Positions 3,225-54,702 of a stretch of 64,000 nucleotides of DNA are shown here, one piece after another. Below the pieces are notes generated by a model that saw only the letters and a list, made by a program, of their open reading frames with translations, was not told where the DNA came from and made no database searches. Origin of the DNA: Zoroaster sp. YZ-2022 (lineage: Eukaryota; Echinodermata; Asteroidea; Forcipulatida; Zoroasteridae); the NCBI GenBank assembly GCA_029582265.1, contig CM055837.1:8011926-8075925 (forward strand), in the 5' to 3' direction. Every line of letters starts with the position of its first letter. The stretch's first letter is position 1. The translations under genes and the position numbers were made by a program.

Positions 3225-3885
3225 ACCAACTAGTTGTTAACCAAAAAATGGAACCAGGTAATGATAGTTTCGGTTGGGTATCAATGCATAAACCTGGCGC
3301 AGCCATCATAATAACTATAATCTCTATCAATTTCTATTTTTCATCACAATTTACTGATATCTCGATAAGTTGAAAAGTTCTCAATAACATAATCGCATAA
3401 AAGAACATGGCAGCTGGCACCAGTTTTATGTTTTGGCAATAAAAGCAGTTTCAAGACTGTGCCGTTCTATCACAAAGTTTTGTTTGCTTGTTTCATTTGA
3501 ATCTGTGTATAAAAGAATATTATCGTGATATAAAATTTATCACTCAAACTTAATATTAACTGATCATTCTGTTGATGTCAAATGAAGGCTCTATATTTCC
3601 AAGACTTGATCCATACATTTTAACAACTTAATTTGAAGGTTTAATATAGAGTACTAACAAGCCTACCCACATACAATGTAGTACAGCTTTTGAATACAAA
3701 CATTATTTCTGTTGTTTCTATGTCAGCAAACCTTTAAATAACTATTGCAAGACATTCAAGTAACCATTTTATAGACCTTGTGCATTTGACATGCAATCAT
3801 TTGGTTATCACCAAAATCAGACTGATGTCAGCTTTTAGAATTAGCCAGTACGTGAGGTGCAAACACAGTATTAAGCCTCTGACTA
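3225..3885 (+). repeat. 650-bp dispersed or duplicated block, partner at 34213-34985
   Basis: ATGGAACCAGGTAATGATAG, CAATTTACTGATATCT, TTTAATAT-GAGTACTAACA and GACATTCAAGTAACCATTTT occur in the same order here and at 34213-34985. The distant copy has an extra block of about 220 bp (about 34485-34705) that belongs to another repeat family. Whether this is a segmental duplication or a transposon family cannot be told from two copies. Confidence 0.7.
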
Positions 3886-3889
3886 CACA

Positions 3890-5712
3890 CGGCTGTTTCA
3901 CCTGTTATTAAAGTACGCCCTCTGTCGTCCGAATCTTTTCACCGCGTGTATGACGTCACTTATTTATGCATGCAGGTTGGTGACGTGTTGACCGTTTACC
4001 AAATACGCAGCTATTCAAAAATTCCTATTGTTTGATCCTACACAACATGTCACACATATTCATTGGGGTTACTATGATGAATAATAATTTATCTGACCCC
4101 ACAATGATTTTCCAGATGCCGTTCATCCCATGCCAGGTTGTTTTCGCTGATTCTTGCGGGGTTCTCCTTGCTTTAGTAGGCGCGATTTTATTAACGGTTG
4201 TCGAAGAGACGGCCTTTTTTCTAAATGAAAGTGGCTTACGAAGTCATTCAAATCGTCAGTGAGGACACTTTAGATGTTGCTTTCTACATTAACGCCAGTG
4301 GTAAGTGTAGGACATTTTATTTTGTTGAGGGAAAGTTGTCGTGAAATTGGCTATGAAATTGCTGTCGCTTGTACGTTCGCTCGCCCCTATGCGTGGATAA
4401 TACACGCCATATAATGAGGGGCGAAATTGAAATTTTGCAACCACACGCCACGCCGCATAAAATCCATGTAAAATTTAAAGGGCTAGGGCTAGGCGAACGT
4501 TACACAGTGAGGCTTACTATTTATTTTTTATTAACGTTGCTCGTTGACGTTGTTGCATGTTCATCCATAAAAATCATAGCTCTCAACGTTATGCATTGTT
4601 GTTGACGGAAATTTTCATGGTGTGGTAAAAGTGGTAGCCTAGAAAGAATTCCAACTTCCATAAAATATAAAATAAATAATGAACTTTAATTAACACAGTA
4701 ACACAGTTAAGTAACGTTAGATTAAGTTAGAATAGATGACTGTCATTTTTTGTCCATTAGTGAACTATGGAGGAGGAATACTTCCTCCTCCAGACCATGC
4801 ATGAACATTGTCAAATCCAAAATGACCTGTCCTTTGGCAGTTGGGGTTTGTCATGTCTGTCGTGTTGTTATCACTCATCAGGTAGGCCTAACGTCGCTGG
4901 GCTTAACGTTAGTTTGTGTTTTGGAAATAACGGGTTAAAACCATGGAGGTATAATTTAAAATGTGCTCTTCCAAGTTAAAGCAGGCTTCATTTAGTTCCT
5001 TATTAGGCCCTAGCCTAGGGCTAGTCTAATTAAATTAGAAAAAAAGAATGTAACTGTAAAGCTATGTGGGACGAATTAATATTTTTTACAATTATAGAGG
5101 GCGCTGTACAAGTAGCCGCAAAATATTGTTTAATTAAATTTAGCTGTGCCGCTAAATATCCACTTCTTTTGATTTATTTATAAGGTTGCAATACATGGGC
5201 AAGAAGTAAAGAATTGTCAACATTTTTACCCAGAACTGCGGAAGCATTACACTTACAGTTACAGAGACATGAAAAAAGTATGTATAGTCATGACTTGCGT
5301 GTAAAAGGGTTTGTGTGCATGGCATGCACACGGATGTGGTTACACTTAAATGGCTTCGTATTAATTTGTCTGCCGAATTAGTCAATGCAAGGGCAGCAGC
5401 TGTCAGCTGTCATTGGATAGACCATGGAGGAAGAGAACAGAATATCCCCTTTGCAGTTGATAACTTGATTTATATAACTCACACACAGATCTTTGTAATT
5501 AATGATTGGTGGAACACATCACGTGTTCTCCTATAGCGCAATATAGGATGGCTCGCGGTCATTGACCCGCGTGTGCATACTTATGGCGCGCGCGTCTAGA
5601 TCACGTGTGACATTGGAGAGGGGCTTGTTCTATTAACCAAGTGTTTCAAACTGTAATAAAATTGATTTAAAAAGCATCAAATGACAGGGATCTATATGTG
5701 AGTTAGATATAA
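3890..5712. other. gene-poor stretch with a few short open frames
   Basis: Contains moderately CpG-containing sequence around 3900-4000 with a TGACGTCA site, and short open frames near 4032, 4369, 4750 and 5315. One of them (4767-4890) ends at a plausible GT donor and carries Cys pairs, but I recognise no family and see no continuation exon. Treated as non-coding unless transcripts exist. Confidence 0.4.
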
Positions 5713-5876
5713 CAAAAATATTGGATGCCTTTCATTAAATAATCACAGAATGTAATCACTCGGTGACATCTGGACTGTTCCATTTCACTCGGCTTCACCT
5801 CGTAAAATGGAACAGTCCAGATGTCACCTCGTGATTATATTCTGTGACATTGCACTCATATGCATCCAATATTTGT
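5713..5876. repeat. long near-perfect hairpin just downstream of the RAG1-like gene
   Basis: Inner arms of about 50 bp (TCACAGAATGTAATCACTC and GTGACATCTGGACTGTTCCA on the left, their inverted partners on the right up to 5847) are separated by only a few bases. Outer arms ATATTGGATGC (left) and GCATCCAATAT (right) extend the foldback to about 165 bp. It ends about 40 bp past the stop codon of the complement-strand gene. It may be a foldback MITE, a transposon end or a 3' processing structure. Confidence 0.8.
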
Positions 5877-5915
5877 ATTTATAATGAGGTATTTTGTACA
5901 TGTACATGACATATA

Positions 5916-8900
5916 TCATGCTAATCGGTTCTTTTTCTGTAGCTTAGTTATTGGCTTGATGACTCTTGCTCTGACTTCTGGTGCTGTACTTATGTGGTTA
6001 CGTTTCATGATTGTCATCAGCCTCTGCAGGTCATCTCGCATACCATGAACAGTTCGTCCTGTGCGGTTAAAAGCTGTACGGATGAGCTCCCCTTCTTGCT
6101 CATTTAGGAAGCCAAAGCCAACCTTGAACCTTCGAAGCTGCTCAATTGCATGGTCCTCGAGTAAGTGTAGTTTCGGTGTCACATTTTGACCGTGGAACAT
6201 TTGTCGATATGTATACATGAATTCTTTAATGGCGATCTCTGCAGTTTTGGGAACAAATAAGAATAAATCATTTTGAAAAGGGATTTTTGAAGAGCATAGT
6301 TCAGGTCATTTTAGTACAACTGTAATGCAAGTACTGTCATGTAATTGCTTTGGGGACACATACCCGTTCGATGAATGTTCACTTCTTCAATGTATTCTGC
6401 ATGGTTAATAGCTTGATGCACATCAGCAAATTTCAAAAATATGTTTTTGAAATTGCTACCGCAAGTTGCTGCTTGGCGTAGTAAGTGCATCTGTACTGCT
6501 ATAGGAATATTGTCCATGTCTTTCATATGTTCCTCAACTCTTTGCCGTGGAACCGATGTTAATGCATCTATTACTTCAAGCTGAAATTTATAATCAAGAT
6601 GATGGTAGGAATTATGACATGTGATGATACATTTAACAAGATAACACATGAAGATGTAATCATTCCTAAGCATTCATTACCTTGCAGCATTTTTGGACAT
6701 GGTTGCCCACGAAAGACTTTCCGTGATACGCCTGTCTGTAGATCTTGAAAGTTGAGAGCACTTTATCCAGTGAACTGGCTACTGGACCTGTACCGTAGCG
6801 CAAGACTGCTGTTGCTGCTTCAGTTTCCTTTAAGAATATACACCAGACAATAATTTAATTTGTGTACTGTAAAAAACAAATTAAGTGAACATGGAAATGG
6901 AAGCAAGCAACTCGATTTGCTATTGCTGTCGCAGCAAATCATGTATTTATTTTGATTGTAAGCATTATTGTCCTTACATGTTTTTCTATTTCCTGCCTCA
7001 ACTTAAGGGCTTCATTTGCTACATGCTGATGTTCTGCTGCCAGACTGTCATGAATAACGTGCAGAGGTAGTTCCTCCTCTATCTCCTCAAGACGTTCACG
7101 TTTCTCGTTAAGTTGCCCTTGGATCAGTTCCTGTCGTTTGACTTCAGCAATAACTTGTTCCTCAAAACTGGTCGGAGAAGGCTCTTCAGTTGTTTCATGC
7201 TCTGCTTGAATTTGGCACAACTGTATGTCAAGCTTGTGACAGGAATTTTCGAACAAATCAAAGAGTTTCTTATAAACTCCAAGGGAAATATGGAGAGTAG
7301 GAAGAACCACCTGTAAAATGACCAGGCCAATAAAAAAAATAAGGTTATGTTTCACTTGCAGATACATTGTAACCCGACAAAAACTAAATGTTTGATTGTA
7401 TATAGGGTTGGCACTAATAATTAAAATAAATATTGAAAAACAATGTCCCCGCAAACAATGACTGGAAAAAGTATGGCAAAAGTACCTACAAGTAATAAGT
7501 AACATTTTATTTATGTACAGTGTATTATAATACACAGTACATAAATAAAATGTTACTTACCTGCTTAACTTACCTGCTCTTCCAGTGTTACTGGATACAC
7601 ATTTCTTTTTTGGGCCCAAGTAACATTTGTGTGTAAATAATCCAATACATGTACATTGTACTGTGTAAGGATTAAACAAATTATTACAACTTCAACTTAC
7701 ATGGTCAATTTCAATGGGCATCATTGTCTCACGAACAACACTGAAAGAGACATCTTTTGCTCGTTGTTTCTTTGCACCATCTTCTTGAAATGCTTTCAAA
7801 TCAGATTTCATTGAATCCAGCGTCCTTGCTATACATGGGCTCCGCTCTTGGTATGAATACTGCATGTCTTGCTTGCTGGCTTTACAGTAGATGCAGCAGT
7901 ATCTTGCTAGGAAGATAAGAAATACAAAAATAAAAATTAACAAGTGAATTTACTGAGACCCTTCGTTGATTAATGTTAATATTGACAATTCTGCTATGTG
8001 AACTTACCATTACATCCGTTGATGCCATACAGCTTCGTTAGAAGCTCATAATCTCCAAAATGGAATAATCTCAGTGTTCGGTCCCTAGAAAGAAAAAAAA
8101 AACATGGGAGAATACCTGTCACAAACTTGGTACCATATAGAAACATGTGTTCGTACTTCAGTACTTATTATTAATAACCCTCATCCTAAGTAAAATAATG
8201 AGTGGTTATGATTAAAGTGATTCCATTATGCATTCTTACCGCCATCTTAGAGTTGAAAGTAGTGCAATCTGTTCCAGTATTGGTGGAAGTGTGCGCTGCA
8301 GGTTGGCCAGAGAGTCTGTTCCTTCAAAGCATGCGAATACGACCGTGTTGACTAGGGAGTTTGGATGAAGAACGTTGGCAATTTGGAAGTTCATTTTAAA
8401 TGAATTTCCCCCTTTGTCGCCACCGATCTTTAACCATACCTCATTCTTTGGAATTAAGCCATCATGCCATGTTAGCATCCCCTCGCTGGAAGTAATGACA
8501 AAGAAATCAATCCTCTAGCTAATTTATATTAGTGATTCACCTGTTAGATCATTTAAAAAATCAAATCAAAATCAAAATAAACCATGCCATTTTTAAACTA
8601 GAATATACCTGTCAAGACGATCCAGGTAGTCTGTAATCATAATGGCTAGATCCTTCACATGAACAAAAGGCACATCTTTCATCTCCAGACCATTGATCGC
8701 TGCTGCTGCGGTACTGCTAAAAAACAGCTGAACTCTCTTCCCAACAAGATTATCCTTCAGCAGCGTCTCTTGTTTTCTTCTCATTTTCCGTTCAGAACAT
8801 ATTGGGGTCTGGCTGTTACTCTTCATGTATCTGTTTATAAAAAATGTTTTCTGTTTTAAATGTAGTAGCAAGTGAATTTACTATTTTTAAACTTTAATGT

Positions 8901-10919
8901 ATTTATTTATTTTCGTTTTAATAATGAAAAACAATATTTGAAGTGACATTTTGCTGTTTATGCACATTGCAATATGTCGAATTACCGTCTGAATTTTCTC
9001 ATTTGGTCCCAGCCCAGGTGGCAGTCATGCATCATGGCTAAAGAACCATCAGCAGTGGAAGTTCTTTGATGGTCTTTCTGTGACGAACTGGTTGGCAGAC
9101 ACTGGAGTTCATCGGCCTGCTGAGTTTCGGAAGCTCCTTTGCTGATAATTTGCCGGAAAGATGATATTGCAGCAGTTCGCTGTCGCTTGTATGATGTGGA
9201 GATATTTTCACTTGACTTTGATGGCTTAGTGACCTTTTGAATATGAGCAGGCTGGGGGAAAAATTATGCATTATTAGAGAAAAAAAATGGTTTTATACTA
9301 CAGAAACAATACAGCAGATGTAATGACATAAACCTGATCTCTCCTGGATCACTCCAAATGTCTGTTTACATAATTATTCATTTTTCTGTAGTTTAAATTT
9401 ATTGCAAACTTTTATTGGAGATTTTTAATTTTATATTGTGAATATTGTATGTGTTTAACCCTAACCCCCTAAGCATTGTTTCTGAACAATAGAAATCACA
9501 CAAAATCACACAACTTGCTTTGTTGTCTAGGGGGTTAGGGTAATAGATGTAACAATTGCATCGGGGATAAAGAATGCGAGGGTTCGAATCCCACCCGAGT
9601 AGCCTGTGGATTTTTCCACAGTACTCGAAAAGCACGGAGTATACAATGCTTATCAATATCAAACATCAGTGTAAGGGTAAAACCAAATTAATATTGTATG
9701 TATTGTTTTGAAATGTTAAAATATAATGAAATGAACTTGAACTTAACTAAACTGAAATGACATGAAATGAAATGAAATAATATTCATGAAATTAAATAAT
9801 ATTTATGAAATTACATCTTGAAATCATGTTAATTTATTTGTAAGGTAAAATGACAAAGTATTTACTTACCCGACCTCCAGTGCGTATTGGTATGGCCATT
9901 CCTGGCTGGGCATTTTGAAGCTTGAGCCACACCCACTTGTCAGTGGCCTCTTCAATTTCAGTGGGAATTGGATTGCCAGCTTTGTGTGATTCAGCCAGAC
10001 GTTTAAGTAAACGGGCCGCATTGGTTGGATTTAGATTTTCAGTCTGCTGCTGTTTCCTTGGGCTTACTGGCCATTGTGGTGAAGGGCAACTGATGAGTGT
10101 TTAACATACATAACTTGACAGTCATGATGCAGCAATCGTTGAACTTTGCCAATAGCATTACACCTGGTACAGTTCACATTCAGGTTTTCCAGCTGAAACT
10201 TGAGGACCCGGGGACTTTCAGTTACATCTTGGAATCTGATCTTTTGATTGCATATGGGGCAGTTTATTACTTCATTTGCTGCATGCCTGTAACACAGTGT
10301 CAAACATTGTGCACAGTAATTGTGCTGGCATGGTGTTTGTACACAAGGTTGTCCAATGATGCAAAGGCAAATTCCACATGTGAAGAGTGACTGCTCCCAA
10401 TCATGACCAATGATGTCAAACTCTGCAGGGTATTCAATATTGTCTGTTTTTACAGTTACATGTTGGAAGATGTTGCCTTCAATCAGTGAAAATGGGAGGG
10501 GAGGAGAGGGGCTGCAACTTTGTGTTGCTTTTGGTCTGCCACGCTTTGGTTTGCACTGTACATGTGATCCTGCTGAAATTTGTTTATTGTACAAATCACA
10601 TACGAAACAGTGGCCAGTTCTTGTATGCTTTGGCCAAGTTCTTTGAATGTGCTGTGTTTTAGTCAAAGCGCTCGGAGTGTAACATCTCGTAGACAGATTT
10701 ACAGTGCCTTAACTTTCTGCAGCACTTTTCGCACAAATTTGACGGATGCTGATCTGCACTGTCCTCCCAAGTATTTATTTCAAAGATGCTAAACAACTCC
10801 TTTCTGTACTCACACACTTCGGGTATTTTACTCCTGGATCCACGGAGAGTAATTTTAATTCTATTGGCACAAACTCTGCAGATTTTTCCTAGTGCGACTT
10901 GATGAAATTTAAAACTCAT
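5916..10919 (-). CDS. N-RAG-TP-like protein: RAG1 N-terminal zinc module fused to a non-RAG transposase-like body
   Basis: Ten exons on the complement: 10919-9870, 9251-8986, 8830-8609, 8485-8240, 8084-8008, 7906-7701, 7310-6978, 6827-6681, 6580-6364 and 6238-5916; all nine introns are GT-AG and keep phase. Exon 1 shows CRVC, HPSNLCEKC, HTRTGHCFVC, an AT-hook-like KRGRPK, a RING (CGIC...PCQHNYCAQC...CPIC) and a CTRC...HH finger, the order and spacing of the RAG1 N-terminal region. Later exons carry KIGGDKGGNSFKMNFQ, HFGDYELLTKLYG, YCCIYCK, LPTLHISLGVYKKLFDL, a coiled coil, RQAYHGKSFVGNH, TPKLHLLEDH and VGFGFLNEQEGE, hallmarks of a widespread invertebrate transposase-like family. GGDKGG, FGDYE and NEQEGE hold candidate acidic catalytic residues (inference). 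Exon 1 has two apparent 1-base frameshifts, near 10668 (extra T) and near 10085. RAG1 core motifs are absent. Start chosen at the first ATG before CRVC. Confidence 0.85.
7497..7558. repeat. 62-bp palindrome in intron 6 of the RAG1-like gene
   Basis: AAGTAACATTTTATTTATGT and its inverted partner ACATAAATAAAATGTTACTT flank a GTGTATTATAATACAC centre. It would form an almost perfect cruciform or RNA hairpin. No target duplication is obvious. Confidence 0.8.
9459..9540. mobile_element. 82-bp MITE with CCCTAACCCCCTA inverted ends
   Basis: CCCTAACCCCCTAAGCA at the left is mirrored by CTAGGGGGTTAGGG at the right. The left flank is TTAA; the right flank is TAAT, so the duplication is eroded. The same ends bound the element at 41376-41628. 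It lies in intron 1 of the RAG1-like gene. Confidence 0.6.
9545..9655 (+). repeat. tRNA-derived SINE fragment (family B)
   Basis: GGGTTCGAATCCCACCCGAG is a pol III B box in a tRNA-like context, followed by a TTTTTCCACAGTACTCG stretch. The same arrangement appears inverted at 41030-41155. Only the B-box half is recognisable here; it is not a functional tRNA. Confidence 0.6.
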
Positions 10920-10924
10920 TACAC

Positions 10925-11600
10925 TGATAAAACTTTGAAAATGTATGCAACGCTTAATACAACTTCAGAATAGAAAGAAAATATTTTGCTGTGTGTAGTT
11001 TGTATTACCCGCCGTCGCGTTTCCAACTGCATCGCTGGTATCCACCAACGAGCGTGCTAACTTAATAGGTCGATTGGGAGCCAACACGCGGACTAATCGC
11101 GAACGTCCCGCGCGGTTTTGTGTTTACGTGGTTTCTGGGCACATTTAACAAAGCTAAAAAGACACTTAAATAAAATGTCCTACATTTTTATTCATGATAC
11201 ACGTATAGCAAATATCATGAACTTTACTCCTACGAATTTATATCGAAGGATTGAGCCTTGCTTTATTTTTACGGGTCATTTTCAAGCGCCAATAATTATT
11301 TAGCGATCGGTATGACCAAAGTCATAATGCATCCAAAGGTCATCAAAAAACCGTTCTGTGTAAGGATTTTACATATGCAGAAGTGAAACGTTTGTTGATT
11401 GTTAAGCTTTTGTAATTTAAAGTGTTTTTAAAGTGTTTTTAAAGTGTTTTTAAAGTGTATGTTAGTGTTGTTACGTTTTTTATAATTTTGTTTATTGTAA
11501 CTACGCGCCATGGGCGCCGCCATCTTTGCATTTGATACTACAGAACTCTTGAGGGCGCTGCATGAACACTCTTGACTTTATTAGTACACGTCCAATGCGT
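10925..11600. promoter_or_regulatory. CpG-containing upstream region of the RAG1-like gene
   Basis: Immediately upstream of the complement-strand start codon lies a locally CpG-rich stretch (about 11005-11130) that stands out from the AT-rich surroundings, followed by a run of three AAAGTGTTTTT units near 11418-11455. It could hold the promoter, but no TATA box or initiator is convincing. No coding sequence is seen. Confidence 0.25.
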
Positions 11601-11604
11601 GTGG

Positions 11605-11873
11605 ATCAGCCGTGTACAATAAGGGTCAAAATCAGTCAAAATTTTTATATAATTGCCAAGGTATATCTAGTGCACTTAAAAGTCGAACACTGTCAAACCT
11701 TACGTGTAGTAAGTACATTTACATGTCAAAATGAGTCGACCGATTTTTGACTGGTAAAAGCAAAGTCAAAAAATGCCCCTATGTGCACATTTGGGTCAAC
11801 ACTCAAAACAGGCAGTTGACTAGTTTTGACCTCTGTAGCAACTTCCCACTAAATTACAGCTATAGTAGGAGGG
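11605..11873 (-). mobile_element. TTAA-type MITE, truncated copy
   Basis: The right end reads AGTAGGAGGG followed by TTAA, and the body matches the complete copy at 52078-52391 in inverse orientation (shared blocks include GTATATCTAGTGCACTTAAA and GCACATTTGGGTCAAC). The left terminus has been lost near 11605. Confidence 0.6.
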
Positions 11874-12155
11874 TTAATGAGCCAAATGAGAGTACATACA
11901 TTTACTTTGTCTTTGTGTTTAGTTGGTGTTTTGCATCACACTGATGACTCACGCGCTAAGAAACAAATTCTTTTACAAAAACAAATCTTAGTTGCACAAT
12001 ATCTATCAGTGGCGTGATTTGACAAAAGTAAAAAATGAGTAGCGGGTCTGGGTGTCCCTTTGGTCTCGAGGACAAAACCCCCTGAACCTCCTGGATGTTT
12101 AATTTTGGAGGATTTACAGACTCTCCACATCCCCACAAACAAGAAACCTGAGACT
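11874..12155 (+). repeat. dispersed repeat shared with 35362-35650 and 45870-46010
   Basis: TTAATGAGCCAAATG, TTGCATCACACTGATGACTC and CTGAACCTCCTGGATGTTTA occur in the same order in the copy near 35.4-35.6 kb; the part around 12000-12120 recurs near 45.87-46.01 kb. Non-coding, family unknown. Confidence 0.6.
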
Positions 12156-12840: not shown

Positions 12841-13390
12841 ATTGGAGTATTGTTATGGTTGATGCATCCTTTCTGAAGAAAATTACAAATGAGTAAATGA
12901 ACATTTATTTTTAAAGATTTTTGAAATGATTTTAAGGGAACATACGGTACAACATTGGTATTATCAGACAACAAAATAACAGATTTTTTATTCAAAAGCT
13001 AACATGATGTGCTATTGGTACCAAATCCCCTGTCAAATTATTCTGTCTTAAGTACTTTTACTTCAGAGCAAATGCACAAAAAAAGTGCAAATTGATAAAA
13101 AGGTGCTCCTAGTACTTTCTATAAAACTTTTAAATGCTTTTTCACACTTTTCTATTAACTTAGCATCCTCATGGAACCTGTTTTTACCAACATTACCAAT
13201 GTTGTACCTTTGGTTCAATGTCTATCTTGATTCAAAGAGAGTAAGCATACTCATAGTTCTAAGCAGTTTTGCCAACATTACCAATGTTGTACCTTCCCTT
13301 CAATGTATATCTTGATTCACAGAGAGTAAGCATACTCATAGAAGCAGTTTTGCCAACATTACCAATGTTGTACCTTCCCTTCAATGTATA

Positions 13391-17525: not shown

Positions 17526-18509
17526 CAAACAATATCGCTTTGCACACAATAAGCAATCGCACAATGCATTAACACGTCGATACAATGGCGGCCAATAATG
17601 CAAACATGGCGCGGTTCAATTTCAATGGTACCCGTTCAACGCATGGACAATACGTGAAACCGCAAAACTACCAGTTGCGTTCAACCAATAAGGAACTTAG
17701 CAGTTGCATAACCGTACCAATTTCGTTTTTCTTAGTCGTATGACAGACACATTAGTCATTGACGGCAATAATGTTCCATCCAGGCAATTATTTGTGATTT
17801 TGTCACCGATTTGAAAGAAATAACATTCAATTATCACTGAATGAATCAAATGGTGCACAAAATGTATCACAAAAATTATCATGACCATTTTCATATGAAT
17901 TTAATACTACAAAAATGTTTAAAAATATGTGTTAATGAAAAGATCATAAGTCCGAATGACTTGAAATAAACCCTCAGCGAAAATTCATTCTGAAAGCAAT
18001 TATAAACTTGAAATAATCAAATTTTGTTCATAACGAATGACTTATTTTATTAGTCACAAACATCAGCAATGACTAACCTAAATTGGTCATTTGTGACTAA
18101 ACATTAGTCCTACGTTGATTTAATTAGTCATTGAGACTTGACTAATCTAAATTAGTCGTTTTGACTAATTTATGAGCACCAATGACTAACTTATGTTTAC
18201 AGTGTAAGCGTACTCATAGAAGCAGTTATGCCAAAATTACCAACACAGTACCTTCCCTTCAATGTATATCTTGATTCAAAGAGAGTAAGCATACTCATAT
18301 AGAAGCAGTTTTGCCAACATTACCAATGTTGTACCTTCCCTTCAATGTACATCTTGATTCAAAGAGTAAGCATACTCATAGAAGCAGTTATGCCAAAATT
18401 ACCAATGTTGTACTTTCCCTTTGATGTATATCTTGATTCAAAGAGTAAGCATACTCATAGAAGCAGTTTTGTCAACATTACCAATGTTGTACCTTCCCTT
18501 CAATGTATA

Positions 18510-18947
18510 TGACATAAAACACAATAAAGGGGGCCACTTTGCATCCGTCATGTTAGCAGTTTTTCCAATGGTTGTTATTTATTTTTAAGTACCTGAAACC
18601 GACCAAAAAGTGTTTCAACATGTGAATGGACATGCAGGCTTATACTAGAACTAATTTGAGTTGATTTATTTGATTTTATTATTCTTTATTTTTTTACCCT
18701 CAAATTTCCATAAAAATTGGACGGAAAAAGTTACCTCACTTTTCGTCCATTTGTTGATGGAAATTTTAAGGTGATTAAAAAAATAGTAATAATCAATTCA
18801 AATTATCTTTTGGATAAGCATGCATGTCTATTCAAATGTTGAAATTATTTTTGGGTGGTTTCAGATACTAAACAAAAAATTACAACCATTAGAAAAACTG
18901 CTAACGTGACGGTAGGAAAGTGGCCCCCTTTATTGTGTTTTATGTCA
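18510..18947. mobile_element. 438-bp TA-target MITE with long perfect inverted ends
   Basis: TGACATAAAACACAATAAAG then GGGGCCACTTT at the left are mirrored at the right by AAAGTGGCCCC and CTTTATTGTGTTTTATGTCA. Flanking TA on both sides restores the satellite unit CAATGTATATCT when the element is removed. No coding capacity; a third TA-target family in the array. Confidence 0.9.
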
Positions 18948-19030: not shown

Positions 19031-19578
19031 TTGGAGTGTCGTGGCCGAGCGGTCTAGCGCACCGAACTCAAGTTCTGGTGTTGCCAGCAGCAGGGTGTGG
19101 GTTCGAGCCCCGGTCATGACATTTGTGTCCTTGAGCAAGGTACTTAACCATAATTGCTTCGTCCTTCGGATGGGACGTAAAGCCGTAGGTCCCGTGTGTT
19201 GTATAATGCACGGAAAGTGGATTGTCGTGGCCGAGTGGTCTAGCGCACTGAACTCAAGTTCTGGTGTTGCCAGCAGCAGAGTGTGGGTTCGAGCCCCGGC
19301 CGTGACACCTGTGTCCTTGAGCAAGACACTTAACCATACGCTTCTCTCCACCCAGGGGTTAAATGGGTACCTGTGAAGGCAGAGATGGTTTGCTCTATAT
19401 GTGCTAGAAATGGCAGCAATTGAGCTGTATACTCCCCAGGGAGCTGAGATGGTTTCAGGAATGATTTATGAGCCTTATGAGCCTTATGAGCAGGGATAAT
19501 AATATAATGCGCCTTGAGCGCCACTTAGTTGGTGGATACGTGCGCTATATAAATCTATACATTATTATTATTATTATT
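19031..19578 (+). repeat. two head-to-tail tRNA-derived SINEs inserted in the satellite
   Basis: Two heads, at 19032 and 19223, carry a tRNA-like A box (TGGCCGAGCGGTCTAGCGC; TGGCCGAGTGG) and a B box (GGGTTCGAGCCCC). The long variable-arm-like spacing recalls a tRNA-Leu/Ser ancestor. The first copy has a different 3' part (CTTCGTCCTTCGGATGGGAC) and is cut short; the second runs through GCGCCTTGAGCGCCACTT and TGGTGGATACGTGCGC to an (ATT)n tail. Satellite sequence resumes directly after the tail. Confidence 0.85.
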
Positions 19579-20171
19579 ATATCTTGATTCAAAGAGAGTA
19601 AGCATACTCATAGAAGCAGTTTTGTCAACATTACCAATGTTGTACCTTTGATTCAATGTATATCTTGATTCAAAGAGAGTAGCCTAAGCATACTCATAGA
19701 AGCAGTTTGCCAACATGACCAATGTTGTACCTTCCCTTCAATGTATATCTTGATTCAAAGAGAGTAAGCATACTCATAGAAGCAGTTTTGCCAACATTAC
19801 CAATGTTGTACCTTCCCTTCAATGTATATCTTGATTCAAAGAGAGTAAGCATACTCATAGAAGCAGTTTTGCCAACATTACCAATGTTGTACCTTCCCTT
19901 CAATGTATATCTTGATTCAAAGAGAGTAAGCATATTCATAGAAGCAGTTTTGTCAACATTACCAATGTTGTACCTTTGATTCAATGTATATCTTGATTCA
20001 AAGAGAGTAGCCTAAGCATACTCATAGAAGCAGTTTTGCCAACATTACCAATGTTGTACCTTCCCTTCAATGTATATCTTGATTCAAAGAGAGTAAGCAT
20101 ACTCATAGAAGCAGTTTAGCCAACATTACCAATGCTGTACCTTGTATGTATATCTTGATTCAAAGAGAGTA

Positions 20172-21036: not shown

Positions 21037-21395
21037 GGAGTGTCGTGGCCGAGCGGTCTAACTTACCGGACTCAAGTTCTGGTGTTAGCAGCAGAATGTG
21101 GGTTCGAATCTCGGCCGTGACACTTGTGTCGTTGAGCAAGACACTTAACCATAATTGCTGCTCTCCACCCAGGGGTTAAATGGGTACCTGTGAAGGCAGA
21201 GTTGGTTGATTAGCCCTATATGCGCTGTAATGGCAGCAATTGAGCTGTATATCCCAGGGAGCCGAGATGTTTTCAGGAATGATTTATGAGCCTTATGAGC
21301 AGGGGTAATGATATAATGCGCCTTGAGCACCACTTAGTTGGTGGATACGTGCGCTATATAAGTCCACACATTATTATTATTATTATTATTAATAT
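21037..21395 (+). repeat. full-length tRNA-derived SINE (family A)
   Basis: Begins GGAGTGTCGTGGCCGAGCGG, has a B box GTGGGTTCGAATCTCGG, the conserved GTTGAGCAAGACACTTAACC, a 3' domain GCGCCTTGAGCACCACTT and GGTGGATACGTGCGC, and ends in an (ATT)n tract. It matches the copies at 19.2-19.6 kb and, inverted, at 47.8-48.2 kb. Confidence 0.9.
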
Positions 21396-23769: not shown

Positions 23770-26389
23770 CCCTTTGCATGCTATTGGCGCAAATTTGCGC
23801 CAAGCTTCCTATTCCCACACGCTTAACGGCGCAAATATGCGCCCGGAGTCTGTGCCCACCTATTTATGCAAAATTCAAGAATCTCTTAACCCCTGACCTA
23901 CATCCGGGTATTTTATGATAATATCGTTGTATGGACGCCATTTTGCACATGTAATCTTCAAAACTTTTCTCACAAAATCTTTCAAAAATCATCAAAAATC
24001 ATCGTCAAAGCGTTGCGATTCTGATTAGTGTAAAACAAAGGGGTGTGTACCATGAATGAGGAAGCTTTTAGAGAGATTTGAGGACTCGGATTCGGATGAT
24101 TCGGACTTTGATGAGGTTTTGGTGAGTGATAATGTTGATAGTGATGGTGATGTGTACATGACCAATGATGAAACCGTATCGGACAACGAAGCGGCAGAGC
24201 TAGCACCGAACAGCGACCAACCTCCGGCAGCGGGTGATCGGCAGCGGGCACGTAGGGTGCAAGGTGGCGGAGACGCTTACCGGGTTGCTTTGCACAGGGC
24301 GTATCAGCATGACTGGCTCATGGATTTCAACCAGCCACACGGGCAGATGATTTTTGACAGGGAAGATGCCGATGATATTTCAGAGTATGGTATTTTTTCT
24401 CACTTCTTCGACTCTAATGTCATTGATTTGCTTGTAATTGAAACAAACAGATACGCAGCAACTACAATTGCAAACAAAGGCGGTTTTGACAGTCTTAGTA
24501 GTCACTCAAGGCATTTCTAGCAATATTGCTGCTTATGGGCATAGATAGACGCCCAAATTATGACGCCTATTGGACCACGGAATGGACAATTCAAGCCCCT
24601 GGTATTCGTGCCATTCTCTCTCGGGATAGATTCTATCTAATTCTGCAACTTTTCCACACTACGAACAATGCACTTTTGACTCAAGCAGGGGACCCTCATC
24701 ATGATCGTCGTGGGAAAATCAAACAAGTAATGGAAATGCTGGTGTCCCGATGGCAGTTAGCATATTACCCCGGCCGGGAGATATCGGTGGATGAGACCAT
24801 AATTCCTTTCAAAGGAAGAACCAGTATGAAGGTTTACAAGCCAAACAAACCGCACAAATGGGGGCTCAACTGCTGGAATGTTGCAGAAGCCAACACAGGA
24901 TATATATGGAACTCGGAACTATATCAAGGTAAAGCCAACAATGAAACAGAAGTGGGGCTATACAAAAATGTTGTGCTCCGATTATCTCAGCCCTTGAACA
25001 ATAAAAGGTCATCATATTTATATGGATAATCTATTCTCCTCCAGATTTGTTTAGTGCGCTTGCGAAAACAATATTGAGCTTGACACTAGTGTAAATCGTA
25101 GGCACGCCACAAGAAATCAAGGCCACCAAAATGAAAAGGGGATCCTCTTTGTGCAGTGCGAGACGGTGACCACTTGTTTTGTCTTGGTATGATAAGCGGC
25201 AGGTAAATGTGATGACGTCAGTTCATAATCAATCTACATTTGAGAAGGATGTTCGCTACCGTGGTCAAGTACAGCCTCGTACAATTGACAAGCCCGTTGC
25301 CATTGAGTGCTACACGAGATATATGGGTGGTGTTGATAGAGCCGATCAAGGCATGTGGTACTATCTAAACCTTCATAAGACACTAAAGTGGTGGAAGAAA
25401 GTTTTTGTATACTTGCTCGAAGTATCCTTCGTCAACAGTTGGATAATTTGGAAATCACTTCACGCCGGAACACGCCAAAAGCCTGAGAAATTTCGCTACT
25501 CGATTGTCCATGGTCTTTTAGAAGGACACGTAAGGCCAAACATGAGACCTGGACGTAGATCCCTTGACCAGCCTGCACGTCTGACGGATCGACACTTCAT
25601 GAAGCATATAACGGCTGTCACAGCAGCTGGCCGTAAAAGCAGACCAGACTGTGTTGTCTGCTCAAACCGCAGCGTAAAGCGCCACCAAACAGAATTTTCT
25701 TGTGAGGAATGTGACCTACCGATGTGCCCATCTCCATGCTTCCGCAGGTACCACACACTTGTGGGTTACAAAGCAGACTGTGTACCAGGATACCACTAAC
25801 ACTTGAAGACCTGAACATAACATTCTGTTACATTATTATTTATGCGTGTGGTAAAGTTCCAAGACTTATCAAGAAGCGTATTGTTTGCTTTGTTTTTTTT
25901 CTGTTCATATATTATCACGCGGAATAAAATAGTACATCTACAACATGCACAAACACAATAATTACACGAGCACGGAGAGAACTCTTTTGGATTTGGTTTT
26001 TATTATACAACCAAAAACAATGGACAGTTTATAGCATGAACAGTAGTTCCACTACCCATGTGTTGTGTGTGTGTTTACAATATGTACATGTACATGTATG
26101 CACATGTGCATGCACAATAGTATGCTCAACGTAAGGTTTGAACTATTTGTAATTCCATATTTTCAAAGTTGTGTAACTTCCACATTTTATATCCCACACA
26201 TCTGATTTTTTGACTGATGTTTTGCAAATTTCATACTCTACAATCTTTTTATTTTGAGTTTTGTAATACAAATACTCCTTCATATAGAAAAAAGCTTGTG
26301 AATGCATCCATGCCTATTTTGTGTGTCTGTGCAGAAATAATGCAGCGGGGAGGGAATAGTCAGTGCACTGAATGGTAGCATGCAAAGGG
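23770..26389 (+). mobile_element. piggyBac element, 2,620 bp, TTAA duplication
   Basis: Perfect 14-bp inverted ends CCCTTTGCATGCTA and TAGCATGCAAAGGG are flanked by TTAA at 23766-23769 and 26390-26393. The left subterminal region has palindromic GGCGCAAATTTGCGCC and a GGCGCAAATATGCGCC copy, likely transposase sites. It carries a broken transposase. Well-preserved ends suggest it could still be mobilised in trans. Confidence 0.95.
24050..25799 (+). pseudogene. piggyBac transposase, frameshifted
   Basis: Three overlapping-frame blocks together cover a PGBD-type transposase. Block 1 (24056-24520) has an acidic start (LERFEDSDSDDSDFDEVLVS) and ETNRYA. Block 2 (24526-25029) has LLLMGIDRRPNYDAYW, VDETIIPFKGR with the first catalytic Asp, and HKWGLNCWNVAE. 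Block 3 (25179-25799) has GGVDRADQ with a later catalytic Asp and a C-terminal Cys-rich zinc ribbon (CVVCSNRSVKRHQTEFSCEE, CDLPMCPSPCFRRYH). Frame changes lie near 24500 and 25005, and the 25030-25178 bridge is also shifted; the YMDNLFSS motif survives there in another frame. Not functional as it stands. Confidence 0.9.
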
Positions 26390-31379: not shown

Positions 31380-32345
31380 TTCCAATTATTTCATTCCAAT
31401 TAGTTCATTATTTATACAAATCACTAATGAAATTACTTTATACTTCAACCAACTATAATCTAGATCTATTTATCCAATCCAATATCAATCACTGAATAAT
31501 TATATTCCAATTATTTATACAAATCACTAATGAAATTACTTTATACTTCAACCAACTATAATCTAGATCTATTTATCCAATCCAATATCAATCACTGAAC
31601 AATTATATTCCAATTATTTATACAAATCACTAATGAAATTACTTTATAAAAACCAACTATAATCTAGATCTATTTATCCAATCCAGTATAAATCACTGAA
31701 CAATTCTATTCCAATTATTCCATTATTTATACAAATCATTAATGAAATTACTTTATACTTCAACCAACTATAATCTAGATCTATTTATCCAATCCAATAT
31801 CAATCACTGAACAATTATATTCCAATTATTTATACAAATCACTAATGAAATTACTTTATACTTCAACCAACTATAATCTAGATCTATTTATCCAATCCAG
31901 TATCAATCACTGAATAATTTCTATTCCAATTAGTTCATTATTTATACAAATCACTAATGAAATTACTTTATACTTCAACCAACTATAATCTAGATCTATT
32001 TATCCAATCCAATATCAATCACTGAACAATTATATTCCAATTATTTATACAAATCACTAATGAAATTACTTTATACTTCAACCAACTATAATCTAGATCT
32101 ATTTATCCAATCCAATATCAATCACTGAACAATTATATTCCAATTATTTATACAAATCACTAATGAAATTACTTTATACTTCAACCAACTATAATCTAGA
32201 TCTATTTATCCAATCCAGTATAAATCACTGAACAATTCTATTCCAATTATTCCATTATTTATACAAATCATTAATGAAATTACTTTATACTTCAACCAAC
32301 TATAATCTAGATCTATTTATCCAATCCAATATAAATCACTGAACA
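31380..32345 (+). repeat. AT-rich tandem repeat, about 103-113 bp unit, nine or so copies
   Basis: Each unit has ACTTTATACTTCAACCAACT, ATAATCTAGATCTATTTATC, CAATCACTGAACAATTATAT and TATTTATACAAATCACTAAT. Starts at 31435, 31538 and 31641 give a 103-bp period; other units are about 6-10 bp longer because of an added TTCCATTA or TTAGTTCATTA piece. Copies are very similar, so amplification is recent. Confidence 0.9.
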
Positions 32346-34200
32346 ATTCTAATCTAGACTCGATTCAATCCGCACCACCTTAATACATAGATTAATTTCT
32401 CAACATCCACCACCTCAACATTCTTGCATAAGCGGTTGCATCCTGAAGCCGTTATAAAAGTACCCCTCCTTCATTACGTTTATAAACCCGCAGTGTATTT
32501 TTGTTTATAAGTACTACGTTGAGCCAGTTGTTCCTCCACTTGATAGATGTTTGTAGTCTGCGTAGTTTGTGGACGGGTAAGACGCTTACTGTGACCTTTC
32601 TGGACGTCTAGCCTCCAAACACATAAAATTCATTGCGTTCTCGAAAGGTGAATGTTGAAACAAGGCAGTCGTTGATAAAGCAGTCATGAAAACGGTTACA
32701 CAAGGGCCATCTATAATAATTACAAATTACAGTTCACTAGTAATGTTGTAATCAATTAAGACAATGAGTTCTAATTTCAAGTAAATTAAAAGCAGTTTCA
32801 TTTCCATAAATAAACTTCCAAATTGAATGAATAAAAACAACTTACGATTGTCTGAATTCTCAAGATTCCATTCAATGCCCCTCCGAGCCAAGCTTCTACA
32901 GATCTTTACTATCTATGCTGGTGGCCTGGGCATCAGTGGGGAGAAGGATCGACACTCATGTACTGAAGCACATGTACACACCACAACCACTATCTGGCAT
33001 ACTGACAAACCTCCCACACACACTCCTGCTTTTTTATCTTACAATAGACTCGCTGCTCGCTCAAGCACGGCGCTGCATACCAAAAGGACTCCCCATACAA
33101 AAGTACAATTGTAAATAATATAAAAAAAACAGATAAATGGTCAGTTGTAACAAAAACAATTATTATTATGCAACCATGACCCTTAAAGAAAATACACTAA
33201 AAGACTTTTAAATCACTCAATCTGGGTCGAGATGTGACATACAGTTTATATTTAAAGAATCGACTTTAGAGCAATGGATGATGATCTCTGTAACAGGCTA
33301 TTCAATAAATAAACTTCACCTCTTAGAGACTTCTCATTTTACTGAAAAATTTGGGAATTTCCAGGCCAGAATTTCAGTGAAAAGAAATTGGAAATTCCAC
33401 TGCTATAACAATGACTTTTTGGGGTGTAATTAATTTCTGAAATACCCAACCTGTGAAAAAGAGTGAATAAACAATTTCACATAATTTATTATCTATTTAT
33501 ATTGTCAAGTTGGTCCCACAATCCCAGTAAATCTGCCCCTGCCCTGCCCCTCCCGCCCCCCCCTGACAATGTTGGCTCTCATTCCAAGGTCTGTGCTCCG
33601 GCTGGAGATAACATTGGTGGGGGGTGCGGGGAGTGGGTGACAGGGGAGGGTATGTTTATTGTCACGTGTCCCAACCATTTTTGGCCGGGATTGTAGGTTT
33701 TGGAATCATCCCTAATTTGAACGGTTTTAATCAATTGTATGGCATATATTAATTTTGAACGTCAGAATGGGAAGATGAAATGGGGAAATTAAATTCTCAT
33801 GAGCAGGAGGGACCAAATTTACAAATGATATGATAGCTCTCAGCTATCAATCAAATGTGACCGGATCTTATGAAATGAGTCTTAAGGTGATGTCAGCACA
33901 AATTGAGTTTTTATGTGGTCCTGAAAGAGCACATTCTCCTCTTCCATTTGATAAAAAAAATTAAGTTCATACGTTATAAAATACGGAAGTTATACCATAA
34001 AACACATTGCCTCGGCCTGCAGTGTCAGAGGAAAAAAACCCTTAAAAAAACAAACGGGAATATCATACTATTTCTGGTTTTATTTACATCATTCTTTACA
34101 ACCATTTGTTTTTTAAGTCAACATGGCTGCAAAATACACAAAAAAGTATACTTCTATTTGTGTTGCATGCATGTGCAGTCAGAATTTTAAAAAGTTGTTT
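32346..34200. other. intergenic, no gene supported
   Basis: Short open frames at 32827-33114 and 33463-33696 show no family features; the second is a C/G-rich low-complexity patch bounded by ACAATCCCAG and its rough inverse GGGATTGTAG, possibly a small degraded inverted-repeat element. Confidence 0.4.
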
Positions 34201-34212
34201 ACGGGTAATTGG

Positions 34213-34982
34213 AACCGAAAAATGGAACCAGGTAATGATAGTTTCGGTTGGGTATCTGGGTACACAGATACCTGGCACAGCCATAATAAGTATCTCAATC
34301 AATTTATTTTTTTCATAGTGATAATTTTTTTCATCACAATTTACTGATATCTTGATAAGTTGAAAAGTACTCAATAACATAATCAAATAAAAGAACATTA
34401 TTGTGATATCCGATATCACTCAAGCTTCATAATCATTCTGTTGTCAAATGAAGGCTGTGTTTCTAAGGTTTTTCTACAGATATCGTTTCGGTTTGCGGTA
34501 ACACCATGTGTTTATCTCAACTAACGTGAAGCTGAGGTACAGGTTCTGAAAAGAACCGTATCACAACTTGTATCTCAACCTTCGTTAAGTGAGAAAGGTT
34601 CAAGGGAGAACCAATTTCGGGCAACTCGTTTTTCTCTACTGTCGCTAAGTGAGAAATATGGTTCAGGGAGAACCATGGGGACTTCACGGGTTATTCTCTA
34701 CAGACTTTGTTTTTTATGCATACATTTTAACAATTTAATTTGAAGGTTTAATATCGAGTACTAACAAGCCTACCCACATAGTACAACTTAGAAACATTAT
34801 TTCTGGGATTTCAATTTCAGCAAACCTTTAAATAACTATTGCAAGACATTCAAGTAACCATTTTATAGACCTTGTGCATTTGACGTCATCTAAACACATG
34901 CAATCATTTTGGTTATCACCAAAATCGGACTTGTGTCAGCTTTTACAATTAGCCAGCACGTAAGGTGCAAACACAGTATTAA
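34213..34982 (+). repeat. copy of the 3225-3885 block with an internal insertion
   Basis: Same order of shared blocks as at 3.2-3.9 kb. About 34485-34705 is extra and is itself a GCGGTAACACCATGTG-type repeat like 29990-30335, ending near TTCTCTACAGACTTTG. The block ends at the TTAA used by the next MITE. Confidence 0.7.
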
Positions 34983-35361
34983 CCCTTCTACTGTTTGACC
35001 ATTTGAAACCATTCAAAATTTCCAAAAATTTTCCACCAAAATGCCCATTGGTTTTGTACACACATGGTGATATCATTTGAACAGTGTTGGTAGCAAGCTT
35101 TACTACCATTCAAATCCATTCAAATGCATAGAGGGTCCATTGATTCACCACTTAGAACCAATAGAAGTATCCAAACAAGGTTTTGTATTAGCTATACTAC
35201 CATTTGGAAAGATCCAAACAAAGTTTTGTATTAGGTGACCTACCATTCAAAACCATTTGGGAGAATCAATACTGTACAGTTATTTCACCGTTCAAAACCA
35301 CAAAAGCGAATGGTTTCAAATGGTGGATCAACTTATGAAAAAGGTACCAGAAGTCGGAGTG
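34983..35361 (+). mobile_element. 379-bp TTAA-type MITE
   Basis: CCCTTCTACTG at the left and AGTCGGAGTG at the right are flanked by TTAA at 34979-34982 and 35362-35365. The interior matches the flanks of the piggyBac at 23.8 kb. The ends resemble those of the 52078-52391 element (CTCTCCTACT / AGAAGGG), so these MITE families may use the same transposase. Confidence 0.75.
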
Positions 35362-35365
35362 TTAA

Positions 35366-35660
35366 TGAGCCAAATGCGAGTACATATGTTAATTTTGCCT
35401 TTGTGTTTAGTTGGTGTTTTGCATCACACTGATGACTCGTGCGCTAAGAAACAAATTCTTTTACAAAAACATCTTAGTCGCACAATATCTATCAGGGGTG
35501 TGATTTGAAAAAGTTTTTAAAAAAATATATAAAAAATCCTGAAAAATGGGTAGCGGGCCTGGGTCTCCCTTTGGTCTAGAGAACAAAGCCCCTGAACCTC
35601 CTGGATGTTTAATTTTGGAGGATTTACAGACTCTCCACATCATAACAAACAGGAAACCTG
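35366..35660 (+). repeat. dispersed repeat shared with 11874-12155
   Basis: Matches the copy at 11.9-12.15 kb over most of its length, including GTGTTTAGTTGGTGTTTTGC and GAGGATTTACAGACTCTCCA. Function unknown. Confidence 0.6.
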
Positions 35661-36500
35661 AGGTTTGGACACAATACAGGCAAACCCAATAGTCTGGAAC
35701 CCATCATGTCAATCAATCTGTGTAACCAGTCTATTTTGACTCGTTTAAGAATGGGTGTCCCAAATTTCCTATGTAAAAGTCTGTAGCTCTAAGGTCTGAT
35801 TCGACCCATTGACATGAATAAGACCTTTGATATACAGTCACTGCAGCTACGTTAAACAACATGTAAATTTGACTGGTAGTACTACTGTAATTGTAAATGT
35901 AATAGGCCTACTACTAGTACTACTACAAAGTACTAGGTTCTGTCACCGAGATTTTAGGTGCTCGCATTTCCCCAAATTGTTTGTCAAACTGTACGTTCTT
36001 ATAGCATACTTACATCTATAATGTAATAATATATTTATATAATGTACATGTATATAAAATCGAAAAACTTTTTTATGCCTAAATTTGTCACACAAAATTC
36101 GTAATTTTGAAATACTCACCACGTGGCGACTCAACCTGTTACGTCTTCAGTTCCCAACTGTAAAATGACCAACGCATGACTTTGGTCCGTGAGTACTTAC
36201 ATGTACGTACGGTGAATGACATTGGTCACATGGAGTACAAGAACCTTCATCCATGATTCAACCCAGGGGTCCGAACTGAATAAACTCTCAAAATACATAA
36301 ATGTTCTCTTTTTCCTCAGTACTACGTAGCCTCAGCAATCGAAATGCACATTAAAATGTTGATTTACGCCTATTTTCTTTTAAAATGTATTTTGGGTTGT
36401 CCTGCCGGGTCTCTGGATATACATTTGGTACTGTTCCCCTCCGAAAATAAATCACCCCAAAATAAATGCTAATTTCCAAAGTAATGCAGAAAAATTATAG
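35661..36500. other. intergenic, nothing recognised
   Basis: No gene or element recognised; mixed unique-looking sequence. Confidence 0.4.
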
Positions 36501-38786: not shown

Positions 38787-39125
38787 CTAAATTTGAGTTG
38801 CCATTCGCCGAGGAACAGACATCATACTAAAGTCCTCAATGACTGCGTCAAAATCAACGTGCTCTGCGAAGTCGCGTTCTATGCTGAGAAGTGCCAGTGA
38901 TGACAGCCTCTGCTCCGACATAGTGGATCTTAAATACGACTTCGTTAGCTTCAATCGACTGAACGACCGCTCACTTGAAGCAGAGGAAATTGCGATTGTA
39001 CCAAAAATTCTATACAGAGTACATAATGTCGGATATGCTGTATTAATGTCCCATTCCTTGATCTTCTGCAACATTTCTTCAAGAGAATTCAGATTAGCAT
39101 CGGCAAATTCCAGTTTGAAGTACAT
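38787..39125 (-). pseudogene. hAT transposase C-terminal dimerisation domain fragment
   Basis: The complement frame reads NTAYPTLCTLYRIFGTIAIS, then SASSERSFSRLKLTKSYLRS, TMSEQRLSSLALLSIERDFA and ends VPRRMATQI. The S-SSSERSFS-LK..K..LRS.M...RL..L.L..I pattern is the hAT dimerisation domain as in ZMYM/TTF-type transposases. It is an open 113-codon remnant; catalytic and zinc-finger parts are gone. The transposase DDE residues cannot be assessed. Confidence 0.9.
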
Positions 39126-39414
39126 GTACGTTCTTCCTGGAAGTTGTGAGGTAATGCAATGCTATACTGTATATTCAACAGTGTCAACAGACAAAACAAT
39201 TTAATTTCACGGCAACTTAATTTAGCGAATTGGCATTTCTTCACTTTTTGGAGGCAATTTAATTTCACTAATTTACATCCTCTTGCTATATAAAACCATA
39301 AAAAATATTATATTTGGCAGCAATTTAATTTAGCGAATTGGGCCTCCTAGCGAAATTAAATTGCTAGCGAAATTAACTTGTTTTACAGTATTTGATAAAG
39401 TGATTTCCGGGACA

Positions 39415-47888: not shown

Positions 47889-48221
47889 GGACTTATATAG
47901 CGCACGTATCCACCAACTAAGTGGTGCTCATAAGGCTCATTATATCATTACCCCTGCTCATAAGGCTCATAAATCATTCCTGAAACCATCTCAGCTCCCT
48001 GGGGAGTATACAGCTCAATTGCTGCCATTACAGCGCATATAGGGCTAATCAACCAACTGTGCCCTCACAGGTACCCATTTAACCCCAGGGTGGAGAGAAG
48101 CAATTATGGTTAAGTGTCTTGCTCAAGGACACAAGTGTCACGGCTGGGATTCGAACCCACATTCTGCTGCTAACACCAGAACTTGAGTCCGGCAAGCTAG
48201 ACCGCTCGGCGACGACACTCC
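47763..48221 (-). repeat. tRNA-derived SINE (family A), complement, with long AAT/AACAAT tail
   Basis: On the complement it starts GAGTGTCGTCGCCGAGCGG, has the B box GGGTTCGAATCCCAGCC, GAGCAAGACACTTAACCA, and the TTGGTGGATACGTGCGC domain. The tail (47763-47884 on this strand) is unusually long, a mixture of (AAT)n and (AACAAT)n. Confidence 0.9.
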
Positions 48222-54612: not shown

Positions 54613-54702
54613 AACCCAGTCATCCGTGAATATTTGTGTTTTTTTAGCAACCTAGGTATGCAAGCACGCAGTTTAGTCTGGCACCCTGTACCATACACGT
54701 TG

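Follow-up and report, generated by a model that had tools for sequence, protein, structure and literature searches.

A probable Chapaev-type transposon of a starfish joins a RAG1-like zinc/RING module to a transposase core of predicted RAG1 fold

Where the front half of RAG1 came from is still an unanswered question in the evolution of adaptive immunity, and the closest described systems are transposons and the RAG1-like genes themselves. Chapaev elements are characterized by CAC/GTG ends, target-site duplications of 3 to 4 bp, and transposases that carry the motifs C(2)C, LH, and H(4)H (PMC4079192); they belong to the CMC superfamily and have a DUF1280 (PF06918) domain. In two Chapaev subgroups, a Chapa domain precedes a RING in the manner of RAG1, for which a fusion in a common ancestor has been argued (PMC4411706, with Kapitonov and Jurka 2007 cited there for these transposons). 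A CMCT grouping places EnSpm, Mirage, Chapaev, and Transib together with RAG1 through zinc motifs (PMC12730594). Invertebrate RAG1-like (RAG1L) proteins share the N-terminal zinc motifs, those of echinoderms being without the RING (PMC7204232), and the RAG1/RAG1L family produces a 5-bp target-site duplication (PMC8355894). We analyzed a 64,000-nucleotide (nt) stretch of the starfish Zoroaster sp. YZ-2022 (contig CM055837.1, positions 8,011,926 to 8,075,925; hereafter, the window), for which an initial annotation had reported a RAG1-type N-terminal zinc module lying outside any RAG1 gene, with downstream exons that it did not count as RAG1 core. We are confident that this locus is a full-length, coding-damaged Chapaev-type (CMC) cut-and-paste transposon whose ten-exon transposase is colinear with RAG1. 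The kind of element is already known, and the window contributes a further Chapaev with a RAG1-like module.

The bounds of the element were sought by scanning for CAC termini with exact flanking duplications, with several duplication lengths tried. The preferred solution comprises the following features.

3888..11614, minus strand: whole element, 7,727 bp, very probably a Chapaev-type (CMC) DNA transposon, as judged by termini, duplication, flanking repeats, and DUF1280 transposase
3884..3887, no strand: left copy of the target-site duplication TACA, from the end scan; similarity of the left-flank repeat stops at 3878
3888..3903, no strand: left terminal inverted repeat, starting with CACGGCTG; its 8 leading nt equal the right end, with 12 of 16 matching overall
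11599..11614, no strand: right terminal inverted repeat, whose minus strand starts with CACGGCTG; similarity of the right-flank repeat starts at 11615
11615..11618, no strand: right copy of the duplication TACA, from the end scan

The termini are of the CAC...GTG type, with CACGGCTG at 3888 and CAGCCGTG, the reverse complement, ending at 11614, and the 4-bp TACA that flanks the element on both sides at this single locus falls in the 3- to 4-bp range of Chapaev. A 5-bp duplication of the RAG1/RAG1L kind is not present, as ctaca precedes 3888 and tacaa follows 11614. The flanks at 3606 to 3878 (left) and 11864 to 12152 (right) match 34713 to 34986 and 35352 to 35662, with order and strand kept, and a second flanking repeat starts at 11615 (77% identity with 52376 to 52074). 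Because the flanks are thus two parts of one older split repeat, 3888/11614 was preferred over the pair 4702/14080 (duplication TAA, 11 identical nt), which was dropped since half of one flanking host repeat would fall inside the element. The paralogous repeat carries about 365 bp of unrelated sequence at the corresponding point, so that it offers no clean empty site. Two other candidate pairs were discarded: the inverted pair 1723-1809/12259-12346 is a dispersed repeat with further copies at 22144 and 22364, and the pair 4303/11187 occurs, among the scan rows shown, only with a 2-bp TA.

The transposase gene, the single gene recognized in the element, lies on the minus strand, from an ATG at 10919 to a stop codon at 5918 to 5916, in ten exons with GT-AG borders throughout.

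9870..10919, minus strand: exon 1, with three Cys pairs, RING, and following zinc finger making up the RAG1-type N-terminal module; two frame changes
10880-10869, minus strand: CRVC motif of exon 1
10748-10722, minus strand: HPSNLCEKC motif of exon 1
10627-10598, minus strand: HTRTGHCFVC motif of exon 1
10250..10378, minus strand: RING finger with the full C3HC4 ligand set, from the sequence and from the fold of the equivalent region in two relatives
10171-10118, minus strand: CTRC...HHDC zinc finger of exon 1
8986..9251, minus strand: exon 2, starting PAHIQKV right after the TGGR of exon 1; GGRP motif where RAG1 has its nonamer-binding domain
8609..8830, minus strand: exon 3, from the splice model
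8240..8485, minus strand: exon 4, with the first catalytic Asp in GGDKGG (codon 8418-8416), equivalent to RAG1 D600
8008..8084, minus strand: exon 5, with the second catalytic Asp in FGDYE (codon 8053-8051), equivalent to RAG1 D708
7701..7906, minus strand: exon 6, with the C(2)C zinc pair encoded at 7895-7893 and 7886-7884, equivalent to RAG1 C727 and C730
6978..7310, minus strand: exon 7, LH motif with its His codon at 7292-7290, equivalent to RAG1 H795
6681..6827, minus strand: exon 8, containing RQAYHGKSFVGNH, which is kept in relatives
6364..6580, minus strand: exon 9, from the splice model
5916..6238, minus strand: exon 10, with H(4)H encoded at 6167-6165 and 6152-6150, equivalent to RAG1 H937 and H942
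Codon 6089-6087, minus strand: catalytic Glu of exon 10, equivalent to RAG1 E962

All of the motifs quoted in the initial annotation are found on the minus strand between 10919 and 9870 (including the RING at 10378 to 10250), and its exon limits, the ATG at 10919 and a GT donor after 9870, are correct. It made no mention of the interrupted reading frame of exon 1. Relative to the homologs P0001 (from Asterias) and P0002, the frame shifts at 10704 to 10690 and again at about 10100 to 10064, and the frame of the ATG runs into a stop after 86 codons. Exons 2 to 10 are open for 678 codons and colinear with two starfish proteins, and in Asterias the equivalents of exon 1 and of exons 2 to 10 form a single predicted protein. 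The copy is full length but coding damaged, with exon 1 broken and the remaining exons open, and the whole protein cannot be made from it because exon 1 changes frame twice. The residues beside the catalytic Glu are also altered (NEQEGELIR versus NEQGGELIH). The Asp of GTDSL was considered for the second catalytic position and rejected, as the alignments place FGDYE there. Elsewhere inside the element, two plus-strand frames at 4764 to 5381, convergent with the transposase gene, splice to a product of about 103 aa with no convincing Pfam family, and on these grounds they were not accepted as a second gene. Kelch (RAG2-like) matches were absent from the part of the element scanned, which comprised 10 of the 41 reading frames of at least 30 aa between 3800 and 5910, together with one spliced reading. 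A hairpin at 5711 to 5879, with 78-nt arms that are 81% complementary, stands directly behind the transposase stop codon and is possibly a small inserted element.

For comparisons with RAG1 we drew on 120 listed sequences, using 23 in the hhalign comparisons, 13 in the divergence and tree analyses, and 7 in a 14-row alignment. An exon 1 query matches two starfish proteins of about 1,000 aa (E = 1.2e-110 and 3.1e-84; pieces 44 to 63% identical). The modules of the relatives and the window align to RAG1 N termini with an hhalign E value of 5e-31, versus 0.68 and 0.22 for reversed-sequence controls in which the module was split in two halves. The upstream Cys pairs, taken without the RING, reach 99.2% hhalign probability to RAG1 (reversed control, 0.1%), and the best PDB match of the 86-residue piece is the RAG1 N-terminal chain 21wb, albeit weak (E = 0.019). 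The PF12560 cutoff is passed by three of the nine relatives scanned. The RING by itself is ambiguous, matching TRAF6, TRIM, BRCA1, and RAG1 alike; in the predicted fold of the RING region of two relatives, the top row is the RAG1 dimerization domain (1rmd), with TRAF6 tied within 1 Z. The result named beforehand as refuting the initial annotation, a placement of exon 1 among TRIM-type RINGs with the upstream pairs unmatched to RAG1, was not obtained. In the GGRPR motif the G is invariant in 13 of 13 rows (P0028 being omitted from the 14-row alignment); the region around GGRP as a whole has no significant likeness to the RAG1 nonamer-binding domain in hhalign, and a RAG1-type domain of this kind, suggested by the motif alone, was not accepted. 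On these sequence comparisons, the exon 1 module is homologous to the RAG1 N-terminal zinc region, in agreement with the earlier assignment of a RAG1-type zinc/RING module outside any RAG1 gene and, as we now find, within a transposon. The first Cys pairs also bear a weak likeness to zf-AD (10880 to 10722, minus strand, E = 0.015; residues 24 to 81 of P0016, E = 0.00044), a possible sign that the RAG1 C1-C2 region belongs to a larger family.

Downstream of the module, exons 2 to 10 match PF06918 (DUF1280) with 83.1 bits against a cutoff of 25, and the D-D-E triad and the C(2)C, LH, and H(4)H motifs of Chapaev are present in the window and its relatives. The RAG1 catalytic core family PF12940 is not detected in exons 2 to 10 at E values up to 10, nor in P0001 or P0002. 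In sequence family the downstream part is thus indeed distinct from the RAG1 core, as the initial annotation had it; in predicted fold that description fails. In the structural model of P0001, which is 61% identical to the window over the modeled core part, the top 48 Foldseek matches in the PDB are RAG1, RAG1-like, and Transib chains, and by this model the core of the relative has the RAG1 fold, with catalytic residues in register with those of RAG1. An uncoupling of the module from a RAG1-type core is accordingly not supported: the nine exons that follow it encode a Chapaev (DUF1280) transposase whose relative is modeled as RAG1-like. Because the module sits on a RAG1-fold core, the locus is no direct witness of the module traveling separately, as had been proposed; because module and core stand fused, it fits the scenario of Kapitonov and Koonin (PMC4411706). 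Overall, the observation made in the initial annotation holds once corrected for the frame of exon 1 and for the fold of the downstream part, and its interpretation is borne out in part.

Several observations weigh against the reading of the locus as such a transposon with a RAG1-colinear transposase. The structural model is that of Asterias P0001 and not of the window's own chain, AlphaFold training included RAG1 structures, and the whole-length Foldseek superpositions are loose (root mean square deviation of 8.2 to 17.7 in the RAG1 rows). By sequence the window core has no PDB match, hhalign gives the core weak probabilities to RAG1 (20.6% and 12.9%), and the best match of the family profile is BbRAG1L with E = 0.22. 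In the module, PF12560 stays below the cutoff in the window piece (16.8 versus 23.3 bits) and is not reported for the exon 1 read-through or for P0001, P0002, P0010, P0016, P0022, and P0027. As for the ends, randomization reached the match count of the 3888/11614 pair in 11, its terminal run in 25, and both in 5 of 400 trials; chance produces the like of the competing pair 4702/14080 less often (4, 0, and 0 of 400), and this pair was set aside solely on the ground of the flanking repeats. The 64-kb window contains the element only once.

Given a module and a core on one transposase, the question is how the two came to be shared with RAG1. The account that we find most plausible, while stopping short of calling it probable, is a modified form of separate travel: the module was exchanged among RAG1-fold lineages (Chapaev, Transib/RAG) after their cores had split. 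In hhalign-matched columns, four non-starfish Chapaev proteins are no closer to one another in the module (25.1% identity) than to RAG1 (24.8%); their cores, by contrast, share 36.4% identity with one another and 17.5% with RAG1. In a second alignment, with five proteins, the corresponding module values are 24.8% and 25.1%. (The truncated protein P0028 was excluded from core comparisons and P0029 from alignment A2.) Trees were computed for module and core from the same 20 proteins (7 Chapaev and 13 vertebrate RAG1; no outgroup), with branch supports taken from the unrooted trees. The maximum-likelihood stem between the groups is 1.0 to 1.4 for the module and 2.9 to 3.2 for the core, even though the evolutionary rate of the module exceeds that of the core about 2.1-fold within Chapaev and 4.2- to 4.3-fold within RAG1. 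In 200 replicates under each of two models, modules simulated on a stem of core length attained the observed identity 3 and 6 times and those on a rate-scaled stem 0 times and once, versus 83 and 85 times on the fitted stem. Each data set rejects the Chapaev topology of the other, the module data that of the core (approximately unbiased test, P = 0.033) and the core data that of the module (P = 0.008).

Against exchange, the module of the starfish group with the window is less similar to RAG1 (22.9%) than to other Chapaev proteins (24.7%), the corresponding core values being 19.0% and 36.8%. Distances near 4 substitutions per site approach saturation, zinc ligands impose a floor on module identity, and the simulated data are by nature unaligned while the real data were aligned for maximal likeness. 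The RAG1 set is of vertebrates, without invertebrate RAG1L in the comparison, and its core stem may have been lengthened by domestication and the partnership with RAG2. The conflict between the trees partly reflects the long branch of P0016 and the near-trichotomy that the window forms with P0001 and P0002; the conflict is also internal to Chapaev and by itself says nothing on RAG1. Taken together, the divergence and tree tests suggest rather than prove that module and core have different histories. Within the trees, the window groups with P0002 by its module (support, 93) and with P0001 by its core (support, 89), which may reflect shuffling among related elements.

Alternatively, module and RAG1-fold core were fused in the ancestor of Chapaev, Transib, and RAG and inherited together, with most Transibs losing the module. 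This possibility, to which we give somewhat less credence, accords with the identical order of all parts in the Chapaev and RAG1 lineages and with the RAG1 fold predicted for the core of the Chapaev relative, and an ancestral fusion has already been proposed on the basis of domains by Kapitonov and Koonin (PMC4411706). It disagrees with the above module/core divergence and tree comparisons and needs a loss, as Transib is described as being without anything like the RAG1 N-terminal region (PMC7204232). We rank exchange slightly above co-inheritance. More tentatively still, we propose that the zinc/ubiquitin-ligase half of RAG1 was swapped between RAG1-fold transposon lineages, being neither co-inherited nor host derived, and that Chapaev-type elements might be living carriers of the donor or a sister module that they still shuffle.

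That the locus is instead a host gene or a domesticated transposase is very unlikely: the 678 open codons of exons 2 to 10 and their clean splice sites would suit a gene under use, yet the locus has transposon ends, a target duplication, and an interrupted host repeat, and two frame changes break exon 1. Least credible of all is a chance likeness to RAG1 in a fragment of an ordinary TRIM- or TRAF-type RING protein, for although TRAF6, TRIM30, and BRCA1 score equal to or above RAG1 for the RING alone, TRIM21 ranks first for P0001, and the first pairs weakly match zf-AD, a TRIM-type RING is not all that exon 1 contains, as its three upstream pairs match RAG1 without the RING, where the reversed control does not, PF12560 is passed in three relatives, and 21wb tops the PDB matches of the 86-residue piece.

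The gene anatomy, module homology, fold of the relative's core, catalytic register, and element ends with their duplication were established in the analysis, and a scheme of action may be sketched on them. The transposase comprises, in order, three Cys pairs, the RING, a zinc finger, a GGRP linker, and a DDE nuclease of predicted RAG1 fold that shares the catalytic triad and inserted zinc site of RAG1. By analogy with family and fold, two subunits would bind and pair the CAC..GTG ends and cleave through the D-D-E site of an RNase-H fold, whose inserted region would be tied by the C(2)C-H(4)H zinc, before insertion with a 4-bp stagger. The N-terminal half would probably dimerize through the RING region and might, as in RAG1, act as a ubiquitin ligase or as a regulator of the enzyme; ligase activity has been reported for the RAG1 RING (cited in PMC4411706). 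The ends of the damaged copy look movable by an intact relative.

The remainder of the window holds other mobile and repetitive sequences. Pieces of a piggyBac-type transposase lie in several frames at 24056 to 25799 on the plus strand (DDE_Tnp_1_7, E = 1e-13; C-terminal zinc finger, E = 3e-8), and a hAT dimerization domain lies at 38787 to 39161 on the minus strand (E = 7.7e-12). A tandem unit of 79 to 85 bp is arrayed at 13162 to 13390, 18204 to 18510, and 19578 to 20171, and long tandem arrays occupy 31407 to 32348 (103-bp units), 46518 to 47031 (20 bp), and 54195 to 54614 (52 bp). A tRNA-Leu(CAA) is predicted twice, at 21042 to 21123 (plus strand) and at 48135 to 48216 (minus strand), the latter overlapping a further CACGGCTG at 48139.

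The locus is a bounded element that joins the front half of RAG1 to a predicted RAG1-fold core outside Transib and RAG, and even this damaged copy is useful for tracing the origin of RAG1. It shifts the question from the source of the module to its co-inheritance or swap between RAG1-fold lineages, which more sequences can answer, and yields candidate residues for testing RAG1-type chemistry in a Chapaev transposase. The available text of the literature on Chapaev and RAG1 (PMC4411706, PMC12730594, PMC3985635, and PMC4455052) presents neither a structural superposition of Chapaev on RAG1 nor a test of module versus core divergence, either of which may nonetheless be in print.

Among known systems, the N-RAG-TP of Aplysia (Panchin and Moroz 2008), compared here through its description in PMC8355894, likewise has a transposon-borne region like the RAG1 N terminus; Aplysia-named proteins are absent from the 2 and 29 protein matches. 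Transib is described as being without the N-terminal zinc module (PMC4411706 and PMC7204232), and HzTransib has fewer matched residues than RAG1 (465). Vertebrate RAG1 and the RAG1L of ProtoRAG share with the locus the order of C1 to C3, the RING-zinc dimerization region, GGRP, the modeled core fold, the catalytic residues, and the core zinc ligands. They differ from it in the core, which is 15 to 21% identical to RAG1 over matched columns and gives no RAG1 catalytic-domain Pfam match in the window, in the duplication (4 bp in the window versus 5 bp in RAG1/RAG1L), and in that no RAG2-like gene was recognized in the scanned part of the window element. With Chapaev the locus shares DUF1280, the D-D-E triad, the C(2)C/LH/H(4)H motifs, CAC..GTG ends, a 4-bp duplication, and a RAG1-like zinc module with a RING; it departs from Chapaev in no defining trait among those tested and takes its place there as a ten-exon member near the starfish proteins, with a damaged exon 1.
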